Shown: in pieces, positions 13,056 through 15,590 of the stretch
Numbering within the stretch: the stretch's first letter is position 1
Layout of the letters: each line of letters starts with the position of its first letter
Source: Mycobacterium sp.
GTDB lineage: Bacteria > Actinomycetota > Actinomycetes > Mycobacteriales > Mycobacteriaceae
Reading direction: 5' to 3'
DNA length: 39,438 nucleotides
Assembly: GCA_011620645.1 (NCBI GenBank)
Contig: WOYS01000042.1
Coordinates: 12,487 to 51,924 of the forward strand
Notes under the pieces: model-generated
Databases searched by the model: none
What the model was told of the DNA's origin: nothing
What the model saw: the letters and a program-made list of their open reading frames with translations, nothing else
Translations under genes and position numbers: made by a program

Positions 13056-14191
13056 CACCCATCGCCCCCGCACAGCACCTCGAGCCCGCGCACGCCGACA
13101 TGATCACGGCCACGCTGCCATTGGTCGGGGCCAATATCGATGTGATCGCCCGGACCTTCTATCGGCGACTCTTCGACGCGCACCCGTCGCTGCTGCGCAA
13201 CCTGTTCAACCGGGGCAATCAGGCCCAGGGCGCCCAGCAGCGCGCACTGGCCGCGTCCATCGCGACCTTCGCGACCCACCTGGTGAATCCCGACCTGCCG
13301 CACCCGGCCGAGCTGCTGTCGCGGATCGGGCACAAGCACGCGTCGCTGGGCGTCACCGCCGATCAGTACCCGATCGTGCACGAGCATCTGTTCGCCGCGA
13401 TCGTCGAGGTGCTGGGCGCCGATACCGTGACTGCCGAGGTCGCCGAGGCCTGGGACCGCGTCTACTGGATCATGGCCCAGACGCTGATCGACATGGAGCG
13501 TGCGCTCTACGCCGAGGCCGGGGTCGCCGACGGTGACGTCTACCGGCGCGCGCAGGTGATCTCCCGGGTGGATGACCCGTCCGGGGCCATCCTGGTGACC
13601 GTCGGCGGGTTGGGCAGCGAATCCGCACCCGGACAGTATGTTTCGGTCGGCGTGACGCTGCCCGACGGCGCCCGCCAGCTGCGTCAGTACAGCCTGGTCA
13701 ATGCGTCCGGCAGTGGTGAGCTGACATTCGCGGTGAAGCCGGCCGGTGAGGTGTCGGACTGGATCCGGGACAACCTGCGGGTCGGCGATCTGCTCGATGT
13801 CACGCTCCCGTTCGGCGATCTGCCCGCCCCGCAGCCGGGTGCCCCGCTGGTGCTCATCTCGGCGGGCATCGGCATCACCCCGATGATCGGGATTCTGGAG
13901 TCGCTGTCGGCCGATGCACAGGTGCAGGTGCTGCACGCCGATCGCAGCGAGCAGGCCCACCCGCTTCGGGAACGTCAGCGCGAACTCGTCGAGAAGCTGC
14001 CGAACGCGTCGCTGCAGGTCTGGTACGAGGACCCGTTGTCACTCGACGATGTGGCCCTGCCCGCCGACGCCGAGGTCTATCTGTGCGGCAATGACGGCTT
14101 TGTGCGCGCGGTGCGCGAGCAGTTGGTCAGCCGCGGCGTGACCCGCGTGCACTGCGAGCTGTTCAGCCCGAACGACTGGCTGCTGTCCTGA
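13052..14191 (+). CDS. hmp: Flavohaemoprotein, nitric oxide dioxygenase
   Basis: 379 residues. The globin domain (~1-145) carries the B10 Tyr in FYRRLF (~37), Gln at E7 in GAQQRALA (~62-63) and the proximal His in GHKHASLG (~96). The FAD domain carries RQYSLVNA (~211-218), the NAD domain carries AGIGITPM (~271-278), and it ends CELFSPNDW. It oxidises NO to nitrate with O2 and NAD(P)H. ATG 13052 overlaps the nsrR stop, giving coupled translation; the open frame upstream of it is nsrR read in another frame. The stop codon (14189-14191) lies inside the first of four tandem repeats. Confidence 0.95.
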   Translation: MTPIAPAQHLEPAHADMITATLPLVGANIDVIARTFYRRLFDAHPSLLRNLFNRGNQAQGAQQRALAASIATFATHLVNPDLPHPAELLSRIGHKHASLGVTADQYPIVHEHLFAAIVEVLGADTVTAEVAEAWDRVYWIMAQTLIDMERALYAEAGVADGDVYRRAQVISRVDDPSGAILVTVGGLGSESAPGQYVSVGVTLPDGARQLRQYSLVNASGSGELTFAVKPAGEVSDWIRDNLRVGDLLDVTLPFGDLPAPQPGAPLVLISAGIGITPMIGILESLSADAQVQVLHADRSEQAHPLRERQRELVEKLPNASLQVWYEDPLSLDDVALPADAEVYLCGNDGFVRAVREQLVSRGVTRVHCELFSPNDWLLS

Positions 14192-14261
14192 GGTGCGTGG
14201 CTGCTGTCCTGAGGTGCGTGGCTCAGTCCTGAGGTGCGTGGCTCAGTCCTGAGGTGCGTGG
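14180..14261. repeat. Four tandem copies of a 20/21-bp unit at the hmp stop codon
   Basis: Copies at 14180-14200, 14201-14221, 14222-14241 and 14242-14261 share TCCTGAGGTGCGTGG. The first two are 21 nt and the last two 20 nt, differing only at the left end. The TGA in copy 1 is the hmp stop. GAGGTGCGTGG is also the left end of the 128-bp repeat that follows, so these are extra copies of that repeat's terminus. Confidence 0.9.
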
Positions 14262-14378
14262 CTTCAGTTTCGCGGCGGAGTCTGTTCGGAAACTGAAGCC
14301 AGGTACGTCGCAAGCGCGGATTCCGTCCCAGGTTTCAGTGTCCAAGCGAGTAGGCCGGCGAGACTGAAGCCTGGGATG
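14251..14378 (+). repeat. Left 128-bp hairpin repeat flanking DUF559-like gene
   Basis: It starts GAGGTGCGTGG and holds two hairpins. TGGCTTCAGTTTC (14259-14271) pairs perfectly with GAAACTGAAGCCA (14289-14301). CCCAGGTTTCAGT (14327-14339) pairs with ACTGAAGCCTGGG (14363-14375) with one G-T. The motif GAAACTGAAGCCAGGTACG at 14289-14307 recurs diverged at 14360-14378, 71 nt later. A homologous unit in the same orientation lies on the other side of the gene (15273-15401) with the same 71-nt spacing. Confidence 0.85.
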
Positions 14379-14394
14379 CCCGGAATCCGGCAGC

Positions 14395-14403
14395 TTGTCG
14401 GTG
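14395..14403 (+). promoter_or_regulatory. TTGTCGGTG box, 20 nt before the start of DUF559-like copy 2
   Basis: Identical nonamer and identical distance to the ATG as at 149-157 for copy 1. It lies between the left hairpin repeat and the gene. Confidence 0.5.
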
Positions 14404-14423
14404 GGCGCTGCCACCATCTCGCC

Positions 14424-15266
14424 ATGGGGGTCGTGATCGGCAGTGAGGCGTTGGCGGCGGGCAAGGTGACGCGCCATGAGCTACGGACTCGCTATCGACG
14501 GATGTTCCCTGACGTTTACGGGCCGTTCGATCCCACAATTCGCGACCGTGCCCGGGGCGCGTGGCTGTGGTCGGGCCGCCGGGGGGTCATCACCGGGGTC
14601 GCGGCGTCGGCACTGCACTGGGCGAAATGGGTCGACGACGATGTGCCGATCGAGATGCTGTGGCGAAACACGCATCCTCCGGCGGGGATCGTCGCCCGTA
14701 ATGAGAGGTTCGCCGCCGACGAGGTCATGACGATCTCGGGTGTGCCGGTGGCCACCCACGTCCGCACCATCTTCGATCTGGGGCGACACCTGGAGGACGA
14801 CCAGGCGGTCGCACGGATCGACGCGCTGCTCTGGCGCGGGCAGGTGTCGGTCGAGGACGTCGGCCCCCTCGTACTGCGGTATCCGGCGGCCCCGGGTATC
14901 CGTAAGTTGAAAGCCGCGCTGACACGCGCCGACGGCGGGGCGGAGTCGCCGCGGGAGACCCGGCTTCGCTTGGCGTTGAGGGAGGCGGGTCTGGCGCCGA
15001 CGGGGACCCAGATCCCGGTGTACGACGCCCAAGGACGCATGGTCGCGAAGGTCGACATGGGTTGGGAAGACCTCAAGATCGCCGTGCAATACGACGGGCG
15101 TCACCACCAGACCGATCGGATGACGTACGTCCGCGACCAGAAGGTCAATCGGGCGCTCGCCGCACTGGGCTGGATCGTCATCCGGGCGATCACCGAGGAT
15201 TCCGACGCGGACGTCATCGGTCGCGTCGCAGCCGCTTTATTCAGTCGCGGTTGGCGGGTGGCGTGA
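14424..15266 (+). CDS. DUF559-like (Vsr/PD-(D/E)xK fold) protein, copy 2
   Basis: 280 residues, homologous over its whole length to the gene at 178-1107. The N-terminal part (GSEALAAGKVTRHELRTRYRRMFPDVYGP, then THVRTIFDLGR) resembles AbiEi-like winged-helix regions. The C-terminal ~110 residues look nuclease-like: GGAESPRETRLRL, VDMGW (Asp present), VQYDGRHHQTD (Gln where many relatives have Glu), then VNRALAALGWIVIRA. Asp, Gln and the His pair could still form a metal site. ATG 14424 is chosen because similarity to copy 1 starts there and the TTGTCGGTG spacing matches. The gene is enclosed by paired hairpin repeats and lies between hmp and the tRNA genes. Function is unknown; nuclease-driven mobility is my inference. 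Confidence 0.8.
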   Translation: MGVVIGSEALAAGKVTRHELRTRYRRMFPDVYGPFDPTIRDRARGAWLWSGRRGVITGVAASALHWAKWVDDDVPIEMLWRNTHPPAGIVARNERFAADEVMTISGVPVATHVRTIFDLGRHLEDDQAVARIDALLWRGQVSVEDVGPLVLRYPAAPGIRKLKAALTRADGGAESPRETRLRLALREAGLAPTGTQIPVYDAQGRMVAKVDMGWEDLKIAVQYDGRHHQTDRMTYVRDQKVNRALAALGWIVIRAITEDSDADVIGRVAAALFSRGWRVA

Positions 15267-15272
15267 GCGGCG

Positions 15273-15401
15273 AGGTGTACGTGACCTCAGTCTGGCGGGC
15301 CCCTCGGCCGCGAAACTGAAGCCAGGTACGCCCCGACCGTGGGAACCGTCCATCGTTTCAATATCGGGCCTAGAGCGCTCGCGAAGCTGAAGCCAGGGAC
15401 G
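15273..15401 (+). repeat. Right 129-bp hairpin repeat flanking DUF559-like gene
   Basis: It begins GAGGTGTACGTG 6 nt after the gene's stop. GAAACTGAAGCCAGGTACG at 15312-15330 is identical to 14289-14307, and the diverged GAAGCTGAAGCCAGGGACG is at 15383-15401, again 71 nt on. The 52 nt between the two motifs are the same length as on the left side, and I count somewhat more than half of the positions identical. GTACGTGACCTCAGT (15278-15292) is a diverged inverted copy of the first motif, so a hairpin can form. Confidence 0.8.
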
Positions 15402-15455
15402 TCCGGGCTGGGGGAGAAGGGTCGACCCTCCAAAAGGCCACAAAGACCAGCCGTT

Positions 15456-15485
15456 TTGGTAGCAGGAACAGCGAGAATGTACCCT
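15456..15485 (+). promoter_or_regulatory. Candidate promoter for tRNA-Thr/tRNA-Met/rpmG/hadABC
   Basis: TTGGTA (15456-15461) and TACCCT (15480-15485, preceded by TG) are separated by 18 nt, about 33 nt before the tRNA-Thr 5' end. It is the only SigA-like pair I see in 15402-15517 and fits a stable-RNA promoter serving the genes behind it. Confidence 0.4.
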
Positions 15486-15517
15486 CTTTAAGGCCCTGCG
15501 ACCGCAAGCAGTGCAGT

Positions 15518-15590
15518 GCCCCCTTAGCTCAGTCGGTAGAGCGTTTCCATGGTAAGGAAAAGGTCAACGGTTCGATTCCGTTAGGGGGCT
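15518..15590 (+). tRNA. thrT: tRNA-Thr(GGT)
   Basis: The 73-nt cloverleaf has acceptor GCCCCCT/AGGGGGC, D arm with AGTCGGTAGA, anticodon loop ATGGTAA (anticodon GGT) closed by TTTCC/GGAAA, and the TTCGATT T-loop. CCA is not encoded. It starts the same tRNA pair that precedes rpmG in M. tuberculosis. Confidence 0.97.

Follow-up and report, generated by a model that had tools for sequence, protein, structure and literature searches.

Does a putative nuclease gene enclosed by palindromic repeats serve as the enzyme of a mobile element and, if so, of which kind? The question was raised by a stretch of 39,438 nucleotides from Mycobacterium sp. (contig WOYS01000042.1, positions 12,487 to 51,924), hereafter called the window (G000:C52:12487-51924, G000 being its own genome), in which two repeat units of ~130 bp bracket a gene of 280 amino acids. 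The arrangement had been described in an original prediction, made from the letters alone, as a REP/RAYT-like or homing-type element. Our answer, to which we give a probability of about 0.6, is a REPIN/RAYT-like system in which a fusion of an AbiEi-like part with a nuclease takes the place of the HUH tyrosine transposase, the window locus being a low-copy, ageing member. The earlier likeness was retained in that dispersed repeats are tied to nuclease genes; the enzyme itself, predicted to be AbiEi-like plus Vsr/I-Bth0305I-like, is no RAYT. Mobility of the element is unproven; on this reading, the nuclease would be what moves the hairpins.

Palindromes around related nuclease genes

Four further relatives of the window gene and one weak match were found in its own genome. 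Those on contigs C109, C45 and C98 were each located, by eye, within a pair of palindromes whose sequence was different each time, and hairpin scoring also registered those on C45 and C98. A general flank test was therefore applied to mycobacterial relatives, the family numbering 2 to 12 genes per genome at E<=1e-30 in all 36 congeneric relatives surveyed. Among 174 loci, 173 genes could be placed (L190 displayed no stop), of which 155 were left once genes at 90% DNA identity had been merged, and for 151 the flanking sequence was long enough. When the 300 nt upstream were compared with the 300 nt downstream, the best local match reached the threshold of 18 in 78 of these 151 relatives, usually as hairpins, versus 13 of 452 cross-locus pairs and one of 149 pairs taken 500-800 nt away. 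Where both orientations differed in strength, 44 matches were stronger as direct and 32 as inverted repeats. Self-complementary hairpins (score >=10) were encountered upstream of 88 and downstream of 37 of the 151 genes, compared with 12 and 12 of 150 distal stretches and six and five of 151 shuffles, respectively. The upstream hairpin often ended about 30-45 nt before the start codon. Outside the genus, the test was passed by 12 of 25 loci (one from each of 25 genomes of other families) versus none of 24 distal controls. A loop motif like CTACTCGCACTTT recurred in hairpin families with differing arms, for example upstream of the gene in L157, L144 and L185.

One of these hairpins, named here the CGCCGAAAYTG family, was followed across 118 genomes. 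Its arm CGCCGAAAYTGYATTCCAGCAG (up to three mismatches, the pattern being taken from flanks already inspected) was present in 53 of them, with 0 to 109 copies per genome, versus zero or one per genome for the reversed pattern. Many plus and minus arms were exactly 41 nt apart and thus delimit a 63-bp hairpin of two 22-nt arms and a 19-nt loop. When sites were picked by one arm, one per genome, 20 out of 30 displayed a partner arm that pairs at 16 or more of the 22 positions. The stems displayed compensatory changes: 21 double changes were counted over 21 sites with at least 14 pairs (sites picked by pairing, which favours paired cells), versus 9.2 ± 2.4 in shuffles, none of 500 being as high, and 0-5 when the stem was slid.

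Solo copies were inspected mainly in G061 (M. austroafricanum DSM 44191), where the arms of 15 such hairpins were 99% and 98% conserved and their loops 72%; near-identical arms with variable loops were thus found at unrelated sites. According to a simple coding score, 11 out of 15 were located 1-11 nt from a stop codon, one ran into an open frame and three were farther off or beside no stop; eight lay between convergent, six between tandem and one between divergent genes. Alignments were read for four of ten solo sites and uncovered orthologous sites without the hairpin in relatives of ~68-79% identity, a distance at which insertion junctions are not readable to the base.

Two side observations concern the hairpins themselves. 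Transposase genes with HTH_38 and rve domains, which we take to be of IS30 type, were located within hairpin loops and flanked by an arm on both sides (L282:593-1975 and L419:1122-2318), as was a gene of similar appearance by eye (L420:1251-2324); the three represent two genomes, and such elements may target the hairpins. The same hairpin also stood at the first bases of two contigs of the own genome (G000:C6:57 and G000:C109:57), which suggests that these repeats interrupt the assembly and that draft genomes may understate their copy number.

The copy number of the hairpin was related to a clade of nucleases. In G061, a relative of 307 amino acids (L281:673-1596) was found between two hairpins whose outer arms matched the family consensus and whose inner ones had diverged. 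Its frame enters the right hairpin at L281:1560-1596, so that the last codons are located there and the stop TAG lies in the loop motif GAGTAG. With this protein as query and a match at E<=1e-95 taken as cognate, 16 of the 118 genomes, including G061 itself, harbored a cognate gene. At least five arms were present in 15 of these 16 genomes, versus five of the 102 others (Fisher 6.5e-14). Counting arms within 250 nt and with up to five mismatches, the left arm, often at -95/-96, adjoined the gene in 13 of the 16 cognate loci and the right one in 12; among the 14 next-best loci each was encountered once, at the same locus. A second arm type was present in 21 of the 118 genomes and adjoined a nuclease gene in at least eight of them (compared by eye); a third was present in eight genomes and was found at the nuclease in G000, G034 and G120. 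Across the 88 loci at which a hairpin precedes the gene, hairpin similarity correlated with protein identity (Mantel rho 0.30, the highest of 999 permutations giving 0.14): its median was close to that of shuffles where proteins were less than ~55% identical and was 0.58 where identity exceeded 70%. Common ancestry by itself would produce a relation of this kind as well. In 14 out of 15 pairs from the same genome, the hairpins were unlike. Nuclease lineages tend to have a single hairpin type each, and it is well supported that gene and hairpins form a unit.

The nuclease and its locus in the window

In its modelled form, the product of the window gene looks like an AbiEi antitoxin to which a nuclease domain of Vsr/I-Bth0305I-like type is attached. 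Its predicted structure agreed with both the AbiEi fold and the Vsr-like catalytic fold, an assignment based on VIA realignment and covering only the folds listed there; Foldseek alone gave no match at E<=0.001. Among 62 sequences of the family, Pfam (E<=0.01) recognised MTES_1575 in 51, DUF559 in 25, AbiEi_1 in ten and PvuRts1I-like_N in two, and no transposase family. In an alignment of these sequences, the candidate catalytic residues E178, D211 and H228 were invariant and D224 was conserved in at least 90%. Sequence search of solved structures returned two response-regulator chains (E 0.14-0.15), neither of them convincing as a relative, nothing came near the cut-offs of NCBIfam, phages gave no match, and six plasmid records matched, every one below 35% identity. 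A second, diverged relative of the gene lies at 178-1104 of the window; no Pfam family scored on its product, which is probably not active as a nuclease, since the DMGW of the family reads PMGW and its YDG reads CDE.

Features of the locus are listed in Table 1. Start codon 14424 was preferred over 14376 because homologues align from there. The two repeat units displayed 71% identity over 95 nt (14289-14383 and 15312-15406). As originally predicted, they share the identical 19-mer GAAACTGAAGCCAGGTACG at 14289 and 15312, with a diverged second copy 71 nt later in both units (14360 and 15383), and the left hairpin has a perfect core of 13 bp within arms 14251-14271 and 14289-14309 (86% over 21 nt). 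The right unit does begin shortly behind the stop codon (15264-15266); its initial GAGGTG is found at 15272 rather than 15273, leaving a gap of five nt. Of the two whole units, only the left one folded better than chance. Folded as DNA, the left unit was better than all of 200 shuffles (z -4.97), and its four arms, ~36 nt apart and in alternating orientation, make up two hairpins. The right unit as a whole gave z +0.62, 148 of 200 shuffles being equally good, which is why its hairpins look decayed; three of its four arms were recognised at two mismatches. The outer arms of the element are inverted repeats of each other, the outer-left and inner-right arms forming a better match (89%). This inverted pair, the four arms of the left unit and the tandem copies at 14177-14269 go beyond the original prediction. 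No Rfam family matched 14150-15520 at E<=1.

Table 1. Positions of the element's parts within the window
Feature	Position	Strand	Basis
Tandem copies of 20-21 nt, comprising the final codons of the flavohaemoglobin-type gene and the element's left border	14177..14269		repeat search
Left unit, hairpin 1 (outer and second arm, 17-nt loop)	14251..14309		repeat search; fold of 14251-14310, z -6.03
Left unit, hairpin 2, arms CCCAGGTTTCAGT / ACTGAAGCCTGGG, between hairpin 1 and start codon	14327..14375		fold of 14325-14383, z -3.31
AbiEi-like + Vsr/EDxHD-like nuclease gene (predicted), 280 aa	14424..15266	+	homologue alignment, Pfam, predicted fold
Right unit, hairpin 1 (first arm decayed; second arm with identical 19-mer)	15272..15335		fold of 15273-15335, z -2.10
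Right unit, hairpin 2 (decayed, no better than shuffles)	15340..15406		fold, z +0.61
Outer left arm with border, inverted copy of outer right arm	14244..14274	+	inverted pair, 81% complementary
Outer right arm, partner of outer left arm	15380..15410	-	inverted pair, 81% complementary

The element is preceded by a flavohaemoglobin-type gene with globin, FAD and NAD domains (hmp in the original prediction) and followed by genes for tRNA-Thr and tRNA-Met. Its own repeat family was nearly single-copy in this genome. A DNA search with the whole unit returned the window's two units only, and the short-arm pattern at three mismatches gave 35 matches, versus 28 for the reversed pattern, so that most of these weak matches are due to chance. 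One solo unit (L037), recognised by its 71-nt spacing, was located between a ribosomal-protein gene, presumably rplO, and the next gene. Arms RACTGAARCCAGGTA (at most one mismatch) were present in eight of ten genomes searched, the reversed pattern occurring 0-1 times; 24 of 30 loci had no nuclease gene within ~1.5 kb and many displayed the same 36/72-nt spacing, some of the loci being neighbouring arms of one unit and single-arm matches possibly being due to chance.

Thirty tRNA-Thr junctions were read. The tRNA gene was directly preceded by the flavohaemoglobin-type gene in seven and by a gloB-type gene in seven, and neither a nuclease gene nor a recognised arm was encountered in the 400 nt at any of these 14 junctions (a control stretch gave nine chance arms in 30 loci). 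At six of the seven hmp junctions without the element, a different short inverted repeat was seen by eye. The element was present in G034, in G120 (there as a diverged gene, no arms being recognised ahead of the tRNA) and, upstream of tRNA-Thr, in L133-L137 and L139. This distribution is compatible with insertion in a single lineage as well as with loss in others. What the original prediction had proposed to look for was thus encountered in every case: solo units in the own genome and in relatives, repeats tied to DUF559-like genes as described above, and hmp-tRNA-Thr junctions lacking the element.

Likeness to known systems and rival explanations

The closest comparison is the REPIN/RAYT system (REPtron), for instance that of Pseudomonas fluorescens SBW25, as far as the consulted parts of its descriptions go (PMC3116915, PMC3733652). 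According to these, both systems share dispersed extragenic pairs of inverted arms with conserved ends, variable spacer and compensatory changes, features all encountered in the CGCCGAAAYTG family, as well as a dedicated gene flanked by the same repeats and several gene-repeat pairs in parallel. A gene bracketed by repeats that also occur dispersed was found here too, the window's own family contributing one solo unit in its genome. Insertion sequences landing in the repeats are a further common trait (ISPpu9, in the part of PMC8450116 consulted). The enzymes differ, RAYT being an HUH tyrosine (Y1) transposase and the present one a predicted AbiEi-Vsr-type fusion. The GTAG tag at the hairpin foot was not found in the CGCCGAAAYTG family, whose ends are CGCC...GGCG or similar and in which GAGTAG sits inside the loop. 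Hosts are mycobacteria and other families of the order, whereas the string 'mycobacter' is absent from the texts of PMC3116915 and PMC3733652. The system therefore works like REPIN/RAYT and is not a member of it. Unlike the EDxHD homing endonuclease I-Bth0305I or Vsr, the window gene stands alone between ordinary genes, without intron or intein judging by its neighbours, and its predicted nuclease is fused to an AbiEi-type part and associated with a dispersed hairpin family. It also departs from AbiE type IV toxin-antitoxin systems in having the nuclease domain in the same chain as the AbiEi part, and no AbiEii nucleotidyltransferase toxin gene is located next to it at the window locus. No description of DUF559/AbiEi genes with cognate palindromes was found among the titles and abstract openings inspected in the literature searched, outside which lay most subscription journals.

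The probable nuclease appears to form a small selfish partnership with its hairpins. The hairpin exists as two copies around the nuclease gene and, in some genomes, also as many solo copies, often directly behind stop codons. We infer that the AbiEi-like N-terminal part would read the arms of 20-22 nt, and it would probably also repress its own promoter, given the frequent position of the upstream hairpin shortly before the start codon. The Vsr/I-Bth0305I-like C-terminal domain may cut or nick at the hairpin, either as a duplex dimer site or as an extruded cruciform or single-stranded DNA, after which repair or strand transfer would copy the hairpin to a new place. Two analogies can be drawn from the portions of the literature consulted: inverted repeats are bound by AbiEi proteins already described (PMC7319586), and the target on which I-Bth0305I seems to form a dimer spans nearly 60 bp (PMC3943268), a length close to that of the 63-bp hairpin.

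Several observations weigh against the REPIN-like reading. Neither transposition nor cleavage was observed, unoccupied orthologous sites came from distant relatives only, and no target-site duplication beyond chance was found in the 15 solo hairpins of G061. Among the 151 genes tested, 52 had no scoring hairpin on either side; the window's own right unit is decayed; and in G120, whose gene at this site is diverged, no arm was recognised within 400 nt ahead of tRNA-Thr. Two whole solo hairpins ~1.4 kb apart in G061 bracket an unrelated stretch (L280), so that bracketing alone is no proof. The arm patterns came from flanks already seen, the E<=1e-95 cut-off was set after seeing the data with a query from one of the 16 genomes, and the rank correlation over all 118 genomes was modest (rho 0.36, p 6e-5). 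G068 has a cognate gene, yet two arms, and no close cognate accompanies the many arms of G020, G034, G106, G126 and G138. For G020, a decayed piece of the gene next to an arm (L418) and, for G034, a bracketed gene just short of the cut-off are explanations after the fact, and the arms of the other three genomes remain unexplained by any cognate. Finally, since the statistics ignore kinship among genomes, common descent explains part of each association.

The main rival dispenses with mobility: the AbiEi-like protein would repress itself through the upstream hairpin, downstream and solo copies would be bidirectional terminators, and the nuclease would have no part in their spread. Binding of AbiEi/Rv2827c proteins to inverted repeats at their own promoter (PMC7319586, as far as consulted), the often similar distance of the upstream hairpin from the start codon and the location of solo hairpins in G061 (11 out of 15 near a stop, eight out of 15 between convergent genes) are in keeping with it. 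We regard it as unlikely, as it leaves unexplained the clade-related copy number, the near-identical arms with variable loops at unrelated sites and the orthologous sites without hairpin, and no T-run was seen by eye behind the solo hairpins inspected. More doubtful still is homing, in which the nuclease would cut unoccupied intergenic alleles, gene and hairpins being copied by recombination, with hairpins as co-converted borders and solo copies as remnants after gene loss. The modelled C-terminal fold is close to I-Bth0305I, whose apparent dimer target was mentioned above (PMC3943268, in part), the gene piece in G020 lies beside arms, and hmp-tRNA-Thr sites are both filled and unfilled; single-target homing, however, gives no dispersal, and the 15 solo hairpins are compact 63-bp units at unrelated sites. 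That the hairpins are miniature inverted-repeat elements of a foreign transposase, with the nuclease genes as passengers, would account for the many arms without close cognate in G106, G126 and G138. It is very improbable, as hairpin type follows nuclease clade and the transposases within hairpin loops, enclosed by arms, look like later insertions. All three were ranked below the REPIN-like reading.

The textbook case of short repeats maintained by an enzyme of their own is that of REPINs and RAYTs. We lean slightly towards a second, independent origin of this life style, in which the members of a chromosomal family of AbiEi-EDxHD fusions, found across the order of the mycobacteria, would each co-evolve with a palindrome of their own and spread it as a miniature element. 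If true, this life style would have arisen more than once, the parallel system relying on a nuclease unrelated to RAYT. It would further assign a function to genes of an uncharacterised family, provide natural nuclease-target pairs for studying the co-evolution of DNA recognition and could account for some of the intergenic hairpins of mycobacterial genomes.
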